Assembly (NCBI GenBank): GCA_024178355.1
Contig: JAMZNZ010000002.1
Coordinates: 539,501-603,500 of the forward strand
Source of the DNA: Maricaulaceae bacterium EIL42A08
Lineage (GTDB): Bacteria > Pseudomonadota > Alphaproteobacteria > Caulobacterales > Maricaulaceae
Length of the DNA: 64,000 nucleotides
Direction: 5' to 3'
The notes beneath the pieces were generated by a model. The model did not search any database, was not told the DNA's origin, and saw only the letters and a program-made list of their open reading frames with translations. The position numbers were made by a program, and so were the translations under genes. Below are positions 6,651-50,183 of the stretch, piece by piece; position 1 is the first letter of the stretch, and every line of letters starts with the position of its first letter.

Positions 6651-7646
6651 ATGAGCGGGCTTGGCGAATTTGAATATATTCGCTCGAAGCTCGCGCCTCT
6701 GACCGATGGCGCTCCGGGCGCTGCGGGACTACGCGATGATGGCGCAATCGTGGAGCTGGGCCCGGGCGAACAGCTCGCGGTGACCGCCGATACCCTGATT
6801 GAGGGGCGTCATTTCCTCAAAGGCGAGGACCCTGCGATTGCCACGAGGCGCGCGCTTCGAACCAATCTGTCAGACCTTGCTGCGATGGGTGCCAAGCCCT
6901 TTGGATACACCGCAAGCATTGTCTGGCCAAAGGACGATTACGAGGCGCGCGCCACAGGCTTTGTGGAAGGTCTCAAAGCCGATCAGGACATATTTGGTAT
7001 CCGGCTGATTGGCGGGGATACAACCTCGGCCAATGCGCCATGGACCCTCTCCATCGCGGCTTTTGGGCGCATTCCAACAGGCCAGAGCCTGCGGCGTGGT
7101 CGCGCGCAAGCCGGAGACCTGCTCGCTGTGACGGGTACGCTTGGCGATGCTGGGCTCGGCCTTGATCACCTGACCGGTGATTGGCCCACTCAAAATCAGG
7201 CCTATATCGAATTCGTGCTACAGCGTTTCCGCCTGCCGCAGCCTCGTATAGCTGTTGGCCTTGCCGCCCGTGGCGGGGCGAATGCCGCAATCGACATCAG
7301 CGACGGGCTTTTGTCTGAAGCCCATCACTTGGCGCGCGAAAGCGGGCTGCAGGCTCAGATCGACCTTGAAGCTATGCCTTTGTCTGCAGCTGCCTCAGGA
7401 TGGCTGGCAGAGCAAGCAGATCCCACCGCAGCCCGTCTGGATCTGGCGACACGCGGAGATGATTACGAGCTACTGTTTGCGGTTCCAGAGGACACGAGCG
7501 ACTTGCTTGTCACACGCTGCAAACGCTTCGGCGTTCCGCTCACATTCATTGGTCGATTGACCGATAATGGTCTTAGCGGCGCGCTTCAGGTTTTGTCGGA
7601 GGGTAAGAGATTGAAGCCATCTCGCCTCGGGTTTACTCAATTTTGA
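6651..7646 (+). CDS. thiL: thiamine-monophosphate kinase
   Basis: Phosphorylates thiamine monophosphate to the active cofactor thiamine diphosphate. A PurM/ThiL-fold protein of 331 residues: GEFEYIRSKLAPL at the start, LRDDGAIVEL, AVTADTLIEGRHF, RTNLSDLAAMGAKPFGY, IGGDTTSA, ATIDISDGL-type motif (AIDISDGLLSEAHHLA) and RGDDYELLF. All expected metal-binding aspartates appear present. It closes the nrdR-rib-nusB block. A thiaminase-like gene lies 40 kb away in the same window, so the cell both completes TPP and may secrete a thiamine-cleaving enzyme. Confidence 0.96.
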   Translation: MSGLGEFEYIRSKLAPLTDGAPGAAGLRDDGAIVELGPGEQLAVTADTLIEGRHFLKGEDPAIATRRALRTNLSDLAAMGAKPFGYTASIVWPKDDYEARATGFVEGLKADQDIFGIRLIGGDTTSANAPWTLSIAAFGRIPTGQSLRRGRAQAGDLLAVTGTLGDAGLGLDHLTGDWPTQNQAYIEFVLQRFRLPQPRIAVGLAARGGANAAIDISDGLLSEAHHLARESGLQAQIDLEAMPLSAAASGWLAEQADPTAARLDLATRGDDYELLFAVPEDTSDLLVTRCKRFGVPLTFIGRLTDNGLSGALQVLSEGKRLKPSRLGFTQF

Positions 7647-41814: not shown

Positions 41815-42966
41815 CTAGCCACCGCGGATGAGGCGCGCCAGCGCGGCACCGGCCCGGCCAAGCGCGCCCTTGCGCTCCACCGTCTCAGCCGCCGCCAGCG
41901 GTACCGACTGGCTGCGCCCATCTGGCAGGCTCACCTCAAGGCGGCCCACAATCGTCCCGGCAGCCACCGGCGCGTTGAGCGGGCCGTCATACACGACCTC
42001 TGCGGTGAACGCGTCGAGATCCCGGCGATGGCCACCGATATCAAGTGTCTCGGTGACCTGAAGCGGCACGATGGCGCTTTGGCCCAGATAGACCTCCGCG
42101 TCGCCTACAAGGGTACCAGCCTCGACAATCGTATCTACGCGGAACTCCGTCAGAGCCGCGCGCATCAGGCGCTCAGCCTCGCTGGCGCGGTCACGCTCGC
42201 TGTCCATGCCGTTAAACACCACGATGCGGCGCACGCCATCACGTTCCGCCGTGGCGGTCAGGCCATAGCCGGCGTCGTCCGTACGCCCTGTTTTCATGCC
42301 ATCGGCCCCGACAAACAGGCCCAAAAGCGGGTTCCGGTTGAATTGGCGGATACCGTTATAGGTGAACTCCTCCTCGCCATAGAGCGAGAAATATTGTGGG
42401 TGTTCAGCAATGATGTGCCGGGTCAGGCGCGCCAGATCGATTGCGGAGATGCGGTGTTCAGGGTCCGGCCAGCCGGTGGAGTTCGCAAAGTTTGCGCTCT
42501 CTAGACCAAGCTCTTGCGCCCGCTCCGTCATCATCATGGCGAAGTTCTGTTCACTCCCGCCCAGCGCTTCAGCGACCACGATGCAGGCATCATTGCCTGA
42601 TTGAACAATGATACCCCGCAAAAGGTCGGCAACACTGGCGCGTGAATTGACTTCCAGAAACATGGTCGAGGAGCCCGAAGCCGCCCCGCCGCGGCGCCAG
42701 GCCTCTTCGCTGACCGGCAGGGTCGTCTCCATGGTCAGCTCGCCGCGCTCCAGCGCTTCAAACACCATCAGCGCGGTCATCAGCTTGGACATGGACGACG
42801 GAGCCATCGCCACATCGCCATCCTTCGAATAGAGAAGCTCGCCCGTTTCATGATCAAGGATCGCAGCGTAAATCGCCCGGATCTCAAAATTCGACTGGGC
42901 GTAGGTGGGCGCGACAAGCGCTCCCAGCATGGCAATCAGAACAACGAAACGGGCGATCATGGGCAA
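41815..42966 (-). CDS. D-alanyl-D-alanine carboxypeptidase (DacC/DD-peptidase family)
   Basis: Low-molecular-weight penicillin-binding protein that trims peptidoglycan side chains. 383 residues with signal peptide FVVLIAMLGALVAPTYAQ. Active-site triad: SxxK in MAPSSMSKLMTALM, SxN in VQSGNDACIVVAEAL, KTG in GMKTGRTDDAGYGL. The C-terminal domain (VPLQVTETLDIGGHRRDL) and a last amphipathic helix fit membrane attachment. First gene of the operon; an rlpA-like gene, often upstream in relatives, is not seen. Confidence 0.94.
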   Translation of the reverse strand: MPMIARFVVLIAMLGALVAPTYAQSNFEIRAIYAAILDHETGELLYSKDGDVAMAPSSMSKLMTALMVFEALERGELTMETTLPVSEEAWRRGGAASGSSTMFLEVNSRASVADLLRGIIVQSGNDACIVVAEALGGSEQNFAMMMTERAQELGLESANFANSTGWPDPEHRISAIDLARLTRHIIAEHPQYFSLYGEEEFTYNGIRQFNRNPLLGLFVGADGMKTGRTDDAGYGLTATAERDGVRRIVVFNGMDSERDRASEAERLMRAALTEFRVDTIVEAGTLVGDAEVYLGQSAIVPLQVTETLDIGGHRRDLDAFTAEVVYDGPLNAPVAAGTIVGRLEVSLPDGRSQSVPLAAAETVERKGALGRAGAALARLIRGG

Positions 42967-43151
42967 GGCCTCCTGCGGATTCGGAAAAGCGTAGGCAAGC
43001 TATCGTGAACACTGCCATGGCGAAAGCGTGGCGAGTGTGATCGTTGCGATCAGGCGCAGGCGCATGTGGGACGTGCGCTCTGTGCCGATCTACCGCGACA
43101 GAGTCTTGCCAGCGCGCACCCGTCAGGGCTAGACACTTCCGCTCTCAGTGC

Positions 43152-43241
<90 letters not shown>

Positions 43242-43411
43242 TTTTGTTCTCCTGTGTTTTTAGCATTCGGTCAGTCGCTTGCTCGATGCTGACGGACGGA
43301 TACCTCGCGTCTGGTGAGTGTCCCTGCCACCGACTTGCTGCTACACCGGCGGTGAAGGCGGGTGAACACATACGCCACTCGATCAGCTTACGCCTCGCGA
43401 AAAGTCAAATA

Positions 43412-45271
43412 TTGCAGATCTTTACCCATATCTTCTCAGCGTTTGAGCGACAGGTTCCCAGCTTTCCGGAGACCCGGCGCAGTGCGCCTTCGGGCAAGCT
43501 GTTCGGGTTTATCTGGCACTATGTGGCGGACGCGCGGTCCTGGCTGATTGGGCTTGTGGCGCTTGCGGTTTTGCTGGGCATCGCCGAGGTGGTCCTGTTT
43601 GGTTTTATAGGCCAGCTGGTCGACCTGCTGGCACAGGCCAATCCGGACACGGTCTTTGCTGACAATGCCCCTCGCCTCGCGGTGATGGTGGCGGTGATCC
43701 TGTTTGCCATGCCGCTGGGTAATTTCCTGCTGGGCCTGATCATTCACCAGGTGCTTTACGGGACCCTCGCGGTGAGCGCGGCCTGGCGGATGCATTCCCA
43801 CCTTCTGGGCCAATCGCTGAGCTTCTTTTCAGATCAATATGCGGGTCGAGTGGGGGCGAAGGTCTTGCAGACCGCCAACGCCATCCGCGATGTGACTTTG
43901 AAGTCGATGCACGTCTTCGTCTTCGTCAGTATCTATTTTGTGTCCACACTCTTCATGGTTTCCAGTGCCGATCCGCGCCTGGTGGTGCCCTTTGTGGTCT
44001 GGCTTGTGGTTTATCTCAGCCTGATCCGCTGGTTTGTTCCGCGCCTGACCATTGTGGCTCAGCGCCAGGCGGATGCGCGCTCTGACATGACCGGCCGCGT
44101 CATCGACAGCTATTCCAACATCGCCACGGTGAAGCTATTCGGGCAGGCCAATGATGAGGAGATTTACACCCGCGCCAGCATGGCGGGCTTTCTGGGCACG
44201 GTGAATGGCCAGTTCCGGCTGATCACCAGCTTTTACACGCTCATCCACCTCAATAACGCCGTCAATCTGCTGGCCATCGCGGCCCTGGGCATTCTGTTCT
44301 GGAGCGACGGGCTTATCAGTGCGGGCTCAATTGCGGTCGCGCTGGGGCTGGCGCTTCGTATTTCCGGCATGTCCCAGTGGATCATGTGGGAAGTGTCGGC
44401 GCTGTTTGAAAATATCGGCATTGTCCACGATGGCATGTCGATCCTGTCAAAGCGCCAGGAGATCAAGGATGCTGAGAACGCGCCTGAGCTTGTCGTGTCC
44501 AAAGGCCAGATATCATTCAGCTATATTGCCTTTCACTACGGCAAAAAAAGCGGGGTCATCGAAGGTCTGAACCTTGATATTAAAGGCGGTGAGAAGATTG
44601 GCCTGATTGGCTCCTCGGGCGCGGGCAAATCCACGCTGGTCAATCTGCTTTTACGTTTTTACGACGTGGAGTCCGGCGACATCTCAATCGATGGCCAGTC
44701 GGTCCGGTCGGTCACACAGGAGTCGTTGCGCAAGCAGATCGCGATGGTGACGCAGGACACTTCCTTGCTCCATCGCTCCATTCGCGAGAACATCGCCTAC
44801 GGCGCGCCTGATGCCACGGATGAACAGATCTGGGCTGCGATTGAGCGCGCCGATGCCGCAGACTTCGTGGCCCGCGTTCAGGATACGCAAGGACGCACTG
44901 GACTTGATGCGCTGGTTGGAGAACGCGGGGTCAAGCTGTCTGGCGGTCAGCGCCAGCGTATCGCCATCGCGCGCGTTTTCTTAAAGGACGCGCCCATTCT
45001 GATCCTGGACGAAGCCACGTCGGCCCTTGATTCAGAGGTTGAGGCGGCCATCCAGCAGAGCCTGTTCTCGCTGATGGAGGGCAAGACGGTTATCGCCATC
45101 GCCCACCGCCTGTCGACGATTGCGCAGATGGACCGCCTGGTCGTGCTGGACCAGGGCGAGATCATCGAGACCGGAACCCATGACGCCCTTCTGGCCCAGG
45201 GTGGTCGCTATGCCAGCCTGTGGGCGCGCCAGTCTGGCGGCTTTCTTGTGGACGCTCCGGCCGCGCAATAG
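43412..45271 (+). CDS. ABC exporter, fused membrane and ATPase domains
   Basis: 619 residues from the chosen start. Six membrane helices at ~30-320 (SWLIGLVALAVLLGIAEVVLFG, LAVMVAVILFAMPLGNFLLGL, VFVFVSIYFVSTLFMV, VVPFVVWLVVYLSL and others), then the ATPase: Walker A GSSGAGKSTLVNLL, Q-loop MVTQDTSLLHRS, signature KLSGGQRQRIAIARVFL, Walker B ILILDEATSALD and H-loop IAHRLSTI. This is the multidrug/lipid exporter type; substrate unknown. The start is uncertain: TTG at 43412 fits relatives, while an ATG at 43244, three bases after the tRNA, would add 56 odd residues. Confidence 0.85.
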   Translation: MQIFTHIFSAFERQVPSFPETRRSAPSGKLFGFIWHYVADARSWLIGLVALAVLLGIAEVVLFGFIGQLVDLLAQANPDTVFADNAPRLAVMVAVILFAMPLGNFLLGLIIHQVLYGTLAVSAAWRMHSHLLGQSLSFFSDQYAGRVGAKVLQTANAIRDVTLKSMHVFVFVSIYFVSTLFMVSSADPRLVVPFVVWLVVYLSLIRWFVPRLTIVAQRQADARSDMTGRVIDSYSNIATVKLFGQANDEEIYTRASMAGFLGTVNGQFRLITSFYTLIHLNNAVNLLAIAALGILFWSDGLISAGSIAVALGLALRISGMSQWIMWEVSALFENIGIVHDGMSILSKRQEIKDAENAPELVVSKGQISFSYIAFHYGKKSGVIEGLNLDIKGGEKIGLIGSSGAGKSTLVNLLLRFYDVESGDISIDGQSVRSVTQESLRKQIAMVTQDTSLLHRSIRENIAYGAPDATDEQIWAAIERADAADFVARVQDTQGRTGLDALVGERGVKLSGGQRQRIAIARVFLKDAPILILDEATSALDSEVEAAIQQSLFSLMEGKTVIAIAHRLSTIAQMDRLVVLDQGEIIETGTHDALLAQGGRYASLWARQSGGFLVDAPAAQ

Positions 45272-45369
45272 TCCGGCCAAAGCCTGTTCGCTCTGGCCCT
45301 GCGGCCAATTGGTCGATGCGCCTGCCCCTGATCCGTGCCAAGCTTCAGACACAGTCACGGGGGACGGAC

Positions 45370-46962
45370 ATGAAGCATTACCTTTTGCTTTCAGCATCCT
45401 TGCTGCTTTTCGCGACACCGGCCTTTGCCCAGTCAGACGAAGGCGGCCATAGCGAGCGCGGCGTCACCGCCAACCCTTCCAGTCAAGCTGAAGCGATGGT
45501 CGAACACGACGGCCACGACGGGTCCGCAACACAGATCCTCGAAAATTACGGCAATGGCGGCTTTCCCATCGCCATCTCGGTGCCCCGGGCCCAGGCCTTC
45601 TTTGATAACGGCATCGAGCTGGCCTTCGCCTTTGCCCACCAGCAAGCGATTGATGCCATGGCCGAAGCCGTTCGCCTCGATCCGACCTGTGCCATGTGTC
45701 ATGCGGGCCATGCCTACACGCTTGGGCCAACCTTGAACTACGGCAAGTCCATGGAGGATCGCGAAGAGGCGTATGAGGCCGCCCGCCGCGCCTTGGAGCT
45801 GGCTCGCCAGACCGATTCAGAGTTTGAGCGCGGCTTTGCTGAAGCCCTGGTGGAGCGCTACCGCCCCCGCGGCACGCCCGACGATCGCGATCTGGCCTAT
45901 GCCGAAGCGATGGAGGCGCTCGCAGTGCGCTTCCCGGGGCATGATTCGGTGCAGGTTCTGGCCGCCGACGCGCGCATGATTGTCGACTTTCAAGCCGAGA
46001 CCCACCGCCAAGCCATGGCCCTTCTGGAGCCGGTGCTGGAGCGCAGTCCTGATCACACCGGGGCCATCCACTTTTATATCCACGCAACGGAAATATCGGG
46101 CGATCCAGGCCTGGCCGAAGCGGCAGCCGACCGTCTCGCCGCCATGGATCTAAGCGCCAGTCACCTCGTTCACATGCCATCGCACACCTATTACTGGGTG
46201 GGGCGCTACGCTGATGCTGCGCGGGCCAATCTGGATGCGGTGCGTGTTGATCGCGGGCACGCAATGGCGATGGACCCTGACGATCCCATGGTAGTCTGGG
46301 GCATCCCCTACCACACCCACAATGTCATCTTTGGGCTGGGCGGAGCGCTCATGAGCGATGACTCGCGCACCGCCCTGATGATGGCCCGGCCGCTGGTGGA
46401 GCGTGCCCAGGCTCGAGAGAGCGGTAGCTTCTTTGGACAACTGCTTCTGTCATCGGCCTATTTCGGTATGGCCCGCTTTGAAGACCCCCACGTCGTGCTG
46501 GAACTTGAAGAGCCTCACCTGCCCTATCTGAAAGCCGCCTGGCGCTATGCCCGCGGCGAGGCCCATGCCTTCCTGGGCGATCGTGAGGGCCTGATGACCG
46601 AGCGTGACGCCATCCCCACTCAGATCGAGCTGAGTGAGGAGGATGAAGAGAACCGCCTCGCGGCCGCCGACCAGATGCTCATCATTACGCGTGCGGTCCT
46701 GTCTGGCAGGCTTGCCATGATGGATGGCGACTACGAGGCGGCAGCCGCCTTCTTTGAAGAAGCTGCAGAAACTGAAGAAACCGAAGACTTCAGCCGCTTC
46801 AGCGACCCGCCCGCCTTCTGGTATCCGGTCCGGCGCGATCTTGCACGCGCGCTCCTGGCAGCCGGCGATGAAGACGGCGCACTACGCGAAGCCTACGCGA
46901 CGCTGGAGGTTCGCCCCAGAGACCCGGGCGCAGAAGCCATCATCGCTGAACTGGCAGGGTAG
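45370..46962 (+). CDS. secreted tetratricopeptide-repeat protein
   Basis: 530 residues, signal peptide MKHYLLLSASLLLFATPAFA, then TPR-like helical pairs: FDNGIELAFAFAHQQAIDAMAEAVRLDP, ARRALELARQTDSEFERGFAEAL, MALLEPVLERSPDHTGAIHFYIHA, VRRDLARALLAAGDEDGALREAYATLEVRP. The family block ending in LGPTLNYGKSM is usually preceded by CAMCYWG; here it reads CAMCHAG, which makes a CxxCH haem-attachment pattern, most likely by chance. GGGACGG precedes the ATG at 45370; an in-frame start at 45220 lies in the ABC gene. Function unknown, probably periplasmic. Confidence 0.8.
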   Translation: MKHYLLLSASLLLFATPAFAQSDEGGHSERGVTANPSSQAEAMVEHDGHDGSATQILENYGNGGFPIAISVPRAQAFFDNGIELAFAFAHQQAIDAMAEAVRLDPTCAMCHAGHAYTLGPTLNYGKSMEDREEAYEAARRALELARQTDSEFERGFAEALVERYRPRGTPDDRDLAYAEAMEALAVRFPGHDSVQVLAADARMIVDFQAETHRQAMALLEPVLERSPDHTGAIHFYIHATEISGDPGLAEAAADRLAAMDLSASHLVHMPSHTYYWVGRYADAARANLDAVRVDRGHAMAMDPDDPMVVWGIPYHTHNVIFGLGGALMSDDSRTALMMARPLVERAQARESGSFFGQLLLSSAYFGMARFEDPHVVLELEEPHLPYLKAAWRYARGEAHAFLGDREGLMTERDAIPTQIELSEEDEENRLAAADQMLIITRAVLSGRLAMMDGDYEAAAAFFEEAAETEETEDFSRFSDPPAFWYPVRRDLARALLAAGDEDGALREAYATLEVRPRDPGAEAIIAELAG

Positions 46963-47097
46963 CCTCGACGAGACAGACAGCGTCGGCACTATACTCGGCA
47001 GAAGAATTTTTCTTCATCCTAAAATAGAGTCGCACTGAACCATTAGTTTTCTTACGGTCCTGCAGAGCTCGTTTAAATTGCCTCAAGGGAGGCGCAT

Positions 47098-48606
47098 TTG
47101 CGGGCCAAATGGCTGGGAGCCCGTATCATGACACGCTTCATTCTTCTTCCCCTCGCCGTATTTGCCCTTTTCAGCTTCTTTACCGGCAAGGCGGCCGCCG
47201 ACTGCGACGTTATTTGCACGGATGGTGAAACCTGCATCGCGGCGGGGCTTTACCCCTATGTTCCGGATACGGACGCTTTCGCGGACGCAATCTGCAATGC
47301 CTGGACCAGTGCCGGTCACACCGAAAAGCTTTATCTTATCGCGGATGAGTCAGTGTGGGATGGCGGGTACGGATCTGATCCTGCCTACATCAACGGAAGT
47401 GGCACTCAGGTTCCGATTGATGTTTTCGTCTACGACGCGATGTATCTGAATTATTGGGAGCCGCTTACCACACCCATTCCGGCGAGCCAGATATCGGACC
47501 CGAGCGATTTTGTGTCTTACGCGTTAAACGCATTGGCGCAGCCAAGTGGAGACATGCTGGCTTTGCCCATGCTGGGTTGCACCAACATCATGTTCTATAT
47601 CAATGGTGATAAACCGATGGATGGCGTCGCGACCCTTCCAGACTTCCTGTCGGTCAATCCGGCGGGCGTATATATCAGTCCCGTTCCCTTTGGGCGCTCA
47701 GGTGCCATGATAAACATGGCTGGAAAGACCACGATCGGCGTCAACTACATGGTCAAAGGCTATCTCGATAGCGGAAGCTGGCCCTCAATGACGTCGCTTG
47801 ACCCGACGATTATTGCCTCAATGGCAGATCTTTCTGAAACAGCAAGTTATTACAACGCATTGACGGGCGCGATCCCGCCCCTGCCTGACGTTGAAGACCA
47901 ATATATTCGCGCCGGATATTTCAGCCAGGGATACGGACGTACATCGATCGGATTTTCCGAGAGCATGTCTCAGATGTCCGATACCACTCGAAGCCGCCTG
48001 ACGCTCCGGGCCTTCCCATGGTCAAACAGAACCGGCGTCGCGAACATGTTCTATGCCGATGTTGTCGGTGTAAATTCCAACTCGAGCTACTTGAGTGGAG
48101 GCGGAACGCTACCCTTCGCGCTCGCCAACCTGATGACCGAAGCCGCGGTGGTTCAAGCAGCGATCGCACCGTTGCCGAACGAGCTTTCCTATCTGTTTCC
48201 GGCGCGCGAAAGCGTCTTGGGAAACCTTGCTGGCATGGATCCGCTTTACGCGCAGATGCAGACAATCCTGAACGGAACGACTTCGGAACTGGTCGCGATG
48301 CCTACGACTGATCGTACCAGCTTCCACAGCTTCGGCGGGCAGGTGCAACAAGCGGTCATGAGCGGTTTCAGCGGACACTGTGATCTGGAAAGCCCGACCT
48401 TTATTGGCTCAGACACACAAGCCGCGACGGTCTGCCCTAGCGTTTGTTCAACCAGCGGCGGCTGGGTTGGATCATGGACGAATGTGGCACCTCCGGCCTG
48501 GCCGGGATATTCGGCTTGTGGGTGCAATCAATGCACTCAAAGTTCGCCTTTGGGCAGCACCGTTGCTCCAGCCGCGATTTCAACGCCGGTCGCACAACGC
48601 AACTAG
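47098..48606 (+). CDS. secreted thiaminase I-like protein with Cys-rich C-terminal module
   Basis: Thiaminase I (thiamine pyridinylase) splits thiamine by exchanging its thiazole for another base. This 502-residue protein carries an export signal (LPLAVFALFSFFTGKAAA) and the thiaminase I outline: LYPYVPD at 51-57, IDVFVYDAMYLNYW, LPMLGCTNIMFY with nucleophile Cys161, MINMAGKTTIG, YIRAGYFSQGYGRTSIGFSESM with Glu288, and FYADVVGVNS with Asp321. The Cys-to-Glu spacing (127) agrees with the Cys113/Glu241 pair of the Bacillus-type enzyme. An extra tail has seven cysteines, including CPSVC at ~446 and CGCNQC at 474-479, resembling a mannan-binding (MVN) module. The TTG start has AAGGGAGG upstream; ATG 47128 is possible. 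Confidence 0.8.
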   Translation: MRAKWLGARIMTRFILLPLAVFALFSFFTGKAAADCDVICTDGETCIAAGLYPYVPDTDAFADAICNAWTSAGHTEKLYLIADESVWDGGYGSDPAYINGSGTQVPIDVFVYDAMYLNYWEPLTTPIPASQISDPSDFVSYALNALAQPSGDMLALPMLGCTNIMFYINGDKPMDGVATLPDFLSVNPAGVYISPVPFGRSGAMINMAGKTTIGVNYMVKGYLDSGSWPSMTSLDPTIIASMADLSETASYYNALTGAIPPLPDVEDQYIRAGYFSQGYGRTSIGFSESMSQMSDTTRSRLTLRAFPWSNRTGVANMFYADVVGVNSNSSYLSGGGTLPFALANLMTEAAVVQAAIAPLPNELSYLFPARESVLGNLAGMDPLYAQMQTILNGTTSELVAMPTTDRTSFHSFGGQVQQAVMSGFSGHCDLESPTFIGSDTQAATVCPSVCSTSGGWVGSWTNVAPPAWPGYSACGCNQCTQSSPLGSTVAPAAISTPVAQRN

Positions 48607-48627
48607 AGCTATCAATCGCAAGGCTTT

Positions 48628-48650
48628 GCCGGGCCTGCTCAAGGCCCGGC
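48628..48650 (+). terminator. hairpin after the thiaminase-like gene
   Basis: A perfect 8-bp stem (48628-48635 with 48643-48650, GCCGGGCC/GGCCCGGC) with a 7-base loop, 22 bases past the stop. There is no T run, so termination is suggested by position only. The 158-base gap to the next gene otherwise shows only a possible nfeD promoter. Confidence 0.5.
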
Positions 48651-48764
48651 ACTGTTGCCTGAACGTCCAGGCCATAAAGACAACTCCGTTTTTTGTGGCC
48701 TCTTGGCCCGGCGCACACTAACTTTAAGTCTCAGACTTCTTTCGCGGTTGGAGTGTAAAGACCC

Positions 48765-50183
48765 ATGTCCCGGAGCGTGTTGCGGTTGGCGGCCCTGATC
48801 TACCTTAGTGCCGAGCTTCTTCTGTCAACGACCGGTATCGCCCAGCAGAACAATGACGGGCGGGTCGTTCACGTCATGCCCATGACTGGAGCGATTGGCC
48901 CGGTCACCACCAGCTTTACTGAACGCGCCATCAGCGAGGCCGAAGACGCCCGCGCGGCCGCTCTGGTCATCGAGATGGATACGCCGGGCGGGCTCGTCAC
49001 TTCCACCCGCGATATCAATCAGGCCATTCTGGCCGCCGACATCCCTGTCATCGTTTATGTCTCACCGCCCGGCGCGCGCGCCGCCAGCGCCGGTGCTTTC
49101 ATCACTTATGCCAGCCACTACGCGGCCATGGCACCCGGCACCAGCATTGGTGCGGCGACGCCGGTCGACATGGGCGGTGGCGGTGGCGAGGCCCCTGCCC
49201 CAAGCGCTCCGAACGCCCCAGAAGGCACTGACCCCGCGCTTGAAGATGCCGCAGACTCAGCCGCTGAGCAGGACACACCCGCCGCTCCCAGCAGCTCTCA
49301 AGCCATGCGCAACAAGGTGGTCAATGACAGCGTCGCTTATATTCGCTCTCTGGCTGAGCTGCGCGGTCGCAATGCGGACTGGGCTGAAGACGCGGTGCGT
49401 AATGGCGTCAGCGTGGCAGCCAGAGAAGCGGTCGAGCTGGGCGTGGTCGAAAGCTATGCCGAAACGCTGGACGTCTTGCTGCGTTCCATCGATGGCGAGG
49501 AGATCACCTTGCAGTCAGGCGCGGTGATCACCCTCCAAACGGCTGATGCGCGCATCGAGTATGTCGGTCGCAGCTTTGCTGAAGACGTGCTGGCGGTCAT
49601 TACCGATCCCAATGTCGCATTTTTGTTGATGAATCTGGGTTTCATCGGCCTTCTGGCGTCCATCTATAACGGGCTGGAGCCGATTACCGGCGTGGCCGGC
49701 ATCATCTGCATGATTGTCGGGCTCTATGCGCTCAACACCCTGCCGGTAAATTATGCCGGGGCGGCGCTGATCCTGCTCGGGCTCGGGCTTTTGGTGGCGG
49801 AAGCCTTCATCGTCTCCGGCGGTTTGCTGGCCTTTGGCGGCCTCATCGCCTTTGCAATCGGGGCGCTGATGCTGGTTGATACCGATGTGGCCGCCTTCCG
49901 ACTCGACTGGCGACTGGTCGCCGGGGCAACAGCCGTGCTCGGCCTGACCAGCTTCCTGCTTATTAGCTACGGCCTCGCCGCACAGGGCCGAAAAGTGACC
50001 ACCGGCGCGCAAGGCCTGATCGGCATGAAGGGCCGCGTGCTCGACTGGGCTGATGGCGAAGGCCATGTCCAGGTCGATGGCGAGCGCTGGCACGCGACCT
50101 CAAGCGACAATCTGAACGAAGGCGACACCATCAAGGTCAAAGCCGTTGAAGGCCTGACCCTTGTCGTGAAGGCCGCGCGATGA
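48765..50183 (+). CDS. NfeD-family membrane serine protease (ClpP-class)
   Basis: 472 residues: signal peptide, a ClpP-like protease domain with catalytic Ser in [18 protein letters not shown] and a likely Lys in [17 protein letters not shown], then five to six membrane helices ([41 protein letters not shown], and others) and a C-terminal OB-fold NfeD domain ([15 protein letters not shown]). NfeD1b proteases cut the hydrophobic end of partner stomatins. Odd: a ~50-residue low-complexity Ala/Pro/Glu insert sits between the two catalytic elements. It overlaps the slipin gene by four bases. Confidence 0.93.

Follow-up and report, generated by a model that had tools for sequence, protein, structure and literature searches.

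It is an open question why bacteria release a vitamin-destroying enzyme, and thiaminase I is called enigmatic in PMC5627462. We met this question in a 64,000-nucleotide stretch of DNA from Maricaulaceae bacterium EIL42A08, which was analysed as a whole and is referred to below as the window. A single ORF occupies 47098-48606 of its plus strand, with two candidate start codons. A TTG start at 47098 would give 502 residues and is preceded by AAGGGAGG, and an ATG start at 47128 would give 492 residues and is preceded by GGGAG; both upstream stretches are Shine-Dalgarno-like as read by eye. Residues are numbered here from the ATG, and the numbering used in the preliminary description of this DNA, which followed the TTG, is ten higher. 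The features discussed below are as follows.

47098..48606 (TTG) or from 47128 (ATG), plus strand: thiaminase I-MVL fusion gene, whole ORF, with the choice of start made by eye
47128..47199, plus strand: putative N-terminal export signal, residues 1-24, a hydrophobic core followed by KAAA
47230..48300, plus strand: thiaminase I catalytic domain, approximately residues 35-391 (TIGR04541, PF22141, PDB 2thi/3thi/4thi/4kys)
47578..47580, plus strand: TGC codon of Cys151, equivalent by alignment to Cys113 of solved thiaminase I, invariant in 12/12 proteins
47959..47961, plus strand: GAG codon of Glu278, equivalent by alignment to Glu241 of solved thiaminase I, invariant in 12/12
48058..48060, plus strand: GAT codon of Asp311, equivalent by alignment to Asp272 of solved thiaminase I, invariant in 12/12
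48379..48534, plus strand: MVL-like C-terminal module, residues 418-469 (PF12151; tail profile against 1zhq; conserved in 12/12)
48535..48603, plus strand: variable linker, closing with the conserved C-terminal xRN, from sequence comparison

The preliminary description had proposed a thiaminase I-like enzyme, and profile searches bore this out. The NCBIfam equivalog TIGR04541 (thiaminase_BcmE) matched residues 14-391 of the window protein with 191.9 bits (cut-off 175), and the Pfam family PF22141 (Thiaminase-1_dom) matched with 62.7 bits (cut-off 27). The solved thiaminases 2thi, 4thi, 3thi and 4kys matched with E values from 3.1e-32 to 1.2e-29. In the alignment with 2thi (counted by hand, with the codons checked), Cys151, Glu278 and Asp311 fell on Cys113, Glu241 and Asp272, the catalytic set of solved thiaminase I. 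The set is the one that had been pointed out at 161, 288 and 321 in TTG numbering, and it was invariant, as were Tyr259, Asp98 and others, in all 12 proteins compared (the window protein and 11 relatives). The search with the window protein at E <= 10 did not list TenA (PF03070); in it, the HMMER filters discard most matches weaker than about 0.1. Because the curated equivalog cut-off was passed, solved thiaminases were matched and the catalytic residues were conserved, the assignment of the ORF to thiaminase I is supported, and the encoded enzyme very probably cuts vitamin B1.

Thiaminase I shares the periplasmic-binding-protein fold, which favours the possibility that the product is a thiamine solute-binding protein or a relative in which catalysis has been lost. 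In the same direction, one relative of the window protein (L052) scored 23.2 bits with SBP_bac_1 (PF01547), below the cut-off of 26. However, the catalytic Cys, Glu and Asp are present in every one of the 12 proteins, no SBP family was listed for the window protein itself at E <= 10 (the HMMER filters drop most weak matches), and within 9 kb no ABC permease partner was conserved between genera. Structure prediction added little: AlphaFold2 models built from 5 and 12 sequences reached mean pLDDT values of 38.0 and 48.4 (pTM 0.49 for the latter), respectively, too poor for superposing the active site or judging the fold of the tail. Foldseek searches with the poor 12-sequence model returned three matches at E <= 0.001, all to thiaminase I (4kys_B, 3thi and 4kys_A; E about 1e-9 for the best ones, TM-scores 0.38-0.52). 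The remaining matches, at E >= 4.7e-3, were presumably for the most part maltose-binding-protein entries and fusions. Thus the top match, obtained with a model of pLDDT 48, was a thiaminase I and not an ordinary solute-binding protein, the latter being the outcome that the preliminary description had named as speaking against its proposal. Foldseek also weighs sequence, so these thiaminase matches lend weak independent support. We regard a binding protein or an enzyme that has lost catalysis as very improbable.

The N-terminus agrees with the export signal claimed earlier, as it is hydrophobic (mean hydropathy 2.86 over residues 4-15) and ends in KAAA-D; inspection by eye of this signal-like stretch of the window protein found no lipobox. 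In a Gram-negative bacterium, such a signal assures delivery to the periplasm only.

Behind the catalytic domain, the window protein carries the Cys-rich tail that had been noticed before, although with six cysteines (418, 436, 440, 464, 466 and 469, within residues 418-469) and not seven. The motifs GGWxGxWTN and CGCxxC and all six tail cysteines were invariant in 12/12 proteins. The proposed resemblance to a mannan-binding lectin module was recovered at the borderline of significance: PF12151 (MVL), whose Pfam cut-off is 25 bits, matched residues 430-466 of the window protein with 23.6 bits in hmmscan and the window gene with 27.5 bits in a six-frame search of the genome. Nine relatives were scanned singly, of which two lay above the cut-off (L052, 27.3 bits; L054, 36.5 bits), three lay below it and four gave no match at E <= 1. 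In alignment A2, 6 of its 12 proteins gave an MVL match at E <= 0.1. A profile built from 11 tails found the MVL lectin 1zhq as its best solved match, at a weak E value of 0.085; its two aligned stretches scored 12.4 bits and, in the other MVL repeat, 2.2 bits. The window tail by itself found no structure match. The window protein and each matching relative contain one MVL stretch only, as against the two tandem 54-residue repeats of MVL itself. These comparisons point to a one-repeat, cysteine-rich relative of MVL, the case being borderline for the window protein alone. Among 15 genomes of the window's genus, MVL was found in two, the same two that carry the thiaminase.

The relatives came from one scan of a genome collection with two catalytic-domain patterns, which gave 146 pattern matches and 11 relatives. 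All 11 are alphaproteobacterial by record title: Alkalicaulis satelles, Oceaniradius stylonematis, Bradyrhizobium sp. BRP22, three MAGs and five of Labrenzia/Roseibium type, one of these five being a MAG nearly identical to another of them. The tail was present in all of them as in the window protein, and since the scan patterns did not contain the tail, its conservation was not built into the set. By sequence comparison, the thiaminase-MVL fusion is therefore conserved, which goes beyond the preliminary description. The thiaminase sampled from outside the Alphaproteobacteria, that of Rhodococcus fascians, has no such tail at its end. No account of a thiaminase-lectin fusion was found in the open literature (subscription journals fall mostly outside this coverage), and individual genes are quite possibly annotated automatically as thiamine pyridinylase in public records.

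The 12 proteins fell into two groups. One unites the window protein with eight others, at 66-68% identity to it; the other, of more canonical type, has three members (33-35%). Cys26 and Cys30 (CDxxC in the window; 47203-47235), Cys36 and Cys56 occur in 9/9 proteins of the window's clade and are absent from the three others; counting those of the tail, as many as ten non-catalytic cysteines might form pairs. The C-terminal xRN (48595-48603 in the window), which follows the variable linker, is likewise found in 9/9 members of this clade and in 0/3 of the other, and may possibly be a sorting or secretion tag.

A further protein, which lies under the cut-off, has no MVL match and was left out of the 12-protein counts, was observed in another genome of the window's genus (L003, 1384-2901 in G087). 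This 506-residue, distantly thiaminase-like protein scored 53 bits with TIGR04541 against the cut-off of 175 and gave no Pfam thiaminase match. It retains HWMCTDYLF, VGFSEQ and LLYVDAF, which by eye resemble the Cys, Glu and Asp sites, and possibly represents a second thiaminase-like lineage.

We also asked how widespread the gene is, as this enzyme class had been described as rare in bacteria. Above the TIGR04541 cut-off, it was found in 2 of the 137 family genomes (each of the two among the 15 searched of the window's genus), in 4 of 385 sampled genomes of the class and in 1 of 398 sampled genomes of the phylum, the window's own; each of these samples includes the window genome. The four genes of the class sample are the window gene and three of the 11 relatives. 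At E <= 0.001, the numbers of genomes were 3, 16 and 24 for family, class and phylum, respectively. The extra matches lay below the cut-off, at 19-31 bits in 12 class and 23 phylum genomes, and the extra family match was L003. Control genomes gave a match in 3 of 14 cases, none above the cut-off. Scanned viral contigs yielded no relative; the pattern matches obtained there encoded none. Among scanned plasmids, the sole find was bcmE from Rhodococcus fascians D188, present in two records. In the samples searched, the gene is rare, as had been claimed.

Such a sparse gene may have been inherited or acquired, and we compared its similarity between hosts with that of thiamine biosynthesis proteins. 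NCBI taxonomy places Alkalicaulis satelles in Maricaulaceae; the genome G085, of the window's genus, and A. satelles give an identical thiaminase protein. Between the window host and Alkalicaulis (G085), the thiaminases were 69.5% identical (BLAST), with ThiC at 88.5%, ThiG at 88% and ThiE at 70%. For G232 (locus L050), which belongs to another family, the thiaminase stood at 69%, ThiC at 69% (73% when a shorter stretch was aligned), ThiG at 52% and ThiE at 54%. The five Labrenzia/Roseibium-type hosts gave 67-69% for the thiaminase, whereas ThiE identity was 35-38% for three of these hosts, the remaining two giving no ThiE match at E <= 1e-20. Within the window's clade, the thiaminase similarities thus do not track the similarities seen for ThiC, ThiG and ThiE, a discrepancy that suggests movement of the gene between orders. 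The canonical clade showed no such pattern (Bradyrhizobium host: thiaminase 33%, ThiC 76%, ThiG 43%). The tree neither recovered nor rejected the window and Alkalicaulis proteins as one clade (AU p 0.273) and so is by itself no proof of transfer. GC at third positions was 0.62 in the thiaminase gene and 0.66-0.73 in six window genes, a mild difference.

The gene lies in the variable interval between dacD, a tRNA gene and nfeD, in which the tRNA is:

43152..43241, plus strand: tRNA-Ser(UGA) of the dacD-tRNA-Ser-nfeD interval holding the thiaminase gene

In both the window genome and Alkalicaulis, the thiaminase gene is close to dacD and tRNA-Ser(UGA), lying between the two in Alkalicaulis and beyond the tRNA in the window. 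Given these differing positions, inheritance of a single old insertion with rearrangement is possible for this pair. The interval (41815-50183 in the window) was observed to be a variable region of the genus, its cargo differing between the window, G095, G092 and G097; in the last three it holds other genes (symporter-like in G095; names by eye) and no thiaminase. We considered the tRNA-Ser as a phage-like attachment site. No stretch of 12 or more bases of the tRNA recurs elsewhere in the window, and the three 11-base matches lie at a great distance, which leaves tRNA-targeted integration unsupported.

Beside the thiaminase gene lie genes for an ABC exporter-like protein and for a TPR-like protein, together with nfeD; the TPR-like and nfeD assignments were made by eye. 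No toxin, immunity, antivitamin or bacimethrin gene and no thi operon was recognised beside it. Except for the window-Alkalicaulis synteny block, no adjacency within 9 kb was conserved between genera, although the Labrenzia/Roseibium loci share neighbours among themselves. Scattered weak matches between neighbours within 9 kb linked the window ABC protein to one in L050 (27%), a protein of 252-295 residues in L050, L053 and L054 (28-33%, at differing distances from the gene), and L047 to L053 (33% over 110 residues). The window contained no TPP riboswitch at the gathering score, hence none on the thiaminase gene; the sole one found in the window genome precedes thiC, on another contig.

Whether cleaving thiamine could benefit the producer depends on what else its genome encodes. 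We tabulated thiamine pathway genes in the 12 host genomes that carry the gene, claiming no enrichment; ThiM and TenA were each sought by one family search, the ThiC query was the protein of the window genome, G232 is 93% complete and the completeness of G880-G886 is unstated. ThiC was found in four hosts (G000, the window host; G085; G232; G886), TenA in eight, ThiM above the cut-off in six (G463 and G880-G884) and the ThiE family in all 12, with a single weaker match each in G383 and G885. ThiG exceeded the cut-off in five hosts and was credible in four, the match in G463 being discounted since it spans 71 positions, contains a stop and overlaps the ThiE match. All six ThiM hosts have TenA and the ThiE family and have neither ThiC nor a credible ThiG, so they could rebuild thiamine from pieces. 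The window host and Alkalicaulis (G085) have ThiC and ThiG, with no TenA or ThiM detected; G232 and G886 have ThiC, ThiG and TenA, with no ThiM above the cut-off; G383 and G885 have none of the four. The window host also encodes ThiE-family proteins and ThiL, the latter within the window at 6651-7646 (270.6 bits, cut-off 184.15); the thiazole kinase ThiM was among the proteins sought in it. Other enzymes could salvage cleavage products there. As a separate observation, the Labrenzia/Roseibium-type hosts G880-G884, together with G383 and G885, show neither ThiC nor ThiG yet carry the thiaminase (the completeness of G880-G885 is unstated); by gene content, these seven seem to lack de novo thiamine synthesis.

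By the chemistry of the thiaminase I family, Cys151, activated by Glu278, would attack thiamine at its pyrimidine, displace the thiazole and hand the pyrimidine on to a second nucleophile. The enzyme would be exported, as its signal-like N-terminus suggests, and its MVL-like tail may tether it to glycans on the surface of a neighbour, in algal or cyanobacterial mucilage, or on the producer's own envelope; tethering would cause thiamine to be destroyed locally. The genome content of the window host suggests that thiamine-dependent neighbours would be deprived, or thiamine analogues broken. We consider it probable, on balance, that the ORF encodes an exported thiaminase I with a glycan-holding MVL-like tail that deprives thiamine-dependent neighbours or breaks analogues and does not feed its producer. 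The tail, if it does anchor the enzyme, would also offer a reason why vitamin B1 is destroyed locally and not in bulk.

Feeding is the main alternative. The enzyme would cleave external thiamine or inactive analogues, and the producer would import thiazole and pyrimidine and rejoin them, a role proposed for Paenibacillus thiaminolyticus in PMC5627462. The six ThiM hosts have the gene content that this requires, and in those of Roseibium/Labrenzia type, with genomes equipped for salvage, the enzyme may feed the producer. However, five of these six are Labrenzia/Roseibium-type relatives, so the six cases are not independent, and G383 and G885 carry the thiaminase with none of the four pathway genes. 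In the window host and in Alkalicaulis, where ThiC and ThiG are present and neither ThiM nor TenA was detected, little gain from salvage is expected, and for the window host denial or analogue destruction is favoured. The earlier suggestion that the enzyme frees pyrimidine or thiazole thus fits 6 of the 12 hosts and not the window host, for which the companion suggestion, that it starves neighbours, is the better fit. Salvage appears rather unlikely to us. We think it quite improbable that the enzyme serves as a defence, destroying antivitamins such as bacimethrin-derived thiamine analogues before or after uptake: thiaminase I does act on analogues (pyrithiamine is named in PMC5627462), and the loss of thiamine-like molecules outside the cell is affordable for a prototroph, but no bacimethrin genes were recognised beside the thiaminase gene.

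Returning to the favoured reading, local denial of thiamine or destruction of its analogues, a broader picture can be sketched, which we offer tentatively and find somewhat doubtful. The gene could be a mobile, single-gene weapon of vitamin denial, a lectin-anchored thiaminase exchanged across orders by alphaproteobacteria on algal, coral and cyanobacterial surfaces, with which thiamine-making hosts would starve B1-dependent neighbours at glycan surfaces and auxotrophic hosts would feed on the fragments. A link to algae is suggested by habitat only; a cyanobacterial culture was the source of A. satelles, according to a title cited in PMC13029026. One enzyme with one architecture is found both in ThiC- and ThiG-containing hosts and in salvage-equipped ones. 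Since several of these hosts are named strains (Alkalicaulis, Roseibium, Oceaniradius), matched knock-outs could tell denial from salvage.

Among known systems, the window protein resembles thiaminase I, or thiamine pyridinylase (TIGR04541 BcmE; 2thi, 3thi, 4thi, 4kys), in its full-length catalytic domain, its Cys/Glu/Asp set and its putatively export-type N-terminus. TenA, or thiaminase II (PF03070), also cleaves thiamine, as stated in PMC5627462, and belongs to an unrelated family. Unlike in the window family, the tail profile found no solved thiaminase at E <= 10, and BcmE of Rhodococcus fascians, with 422 residues, ends without such a tail; no bacimethrin or thi operon was recognised beside the window gene. 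The closest functional precedent, described in PMC10499793, is a myxobacterial thiaminase I on outer-membrane vesicles that restrains Phytophthora by decomposing thiamine. Like this protein (CcThi1; MXAN_4523), the window protein is a thiaminase I of a Gram-negative bacterium, exported there and predicted to be exported here, and CcThi1 decomposes thiamine that a neighbour needs. Compared by description, CcThi1 has a lipoprotein signal and resides on vesicles according to the same paper, whereas the window protein shows no lipobox by eye and has a lectin-like tail; the main text of PMC10499793 uses neither the word lectin nor the word mannan. The tail itself resembles the MVL lectin of Microcystis viridis (PF12151; 1zhq) in its repeat with NxEAQ and GxWT-type features. 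The window-family tail contains cysteines, whereas the aligned MVL stretches have none. According to PMC11203576, MVL is a free-standing, mannose/galactose-binding lectin of two tandem 54-residue repeats, whereas the window protein appears to carry one such repeat fused to an enzyme.
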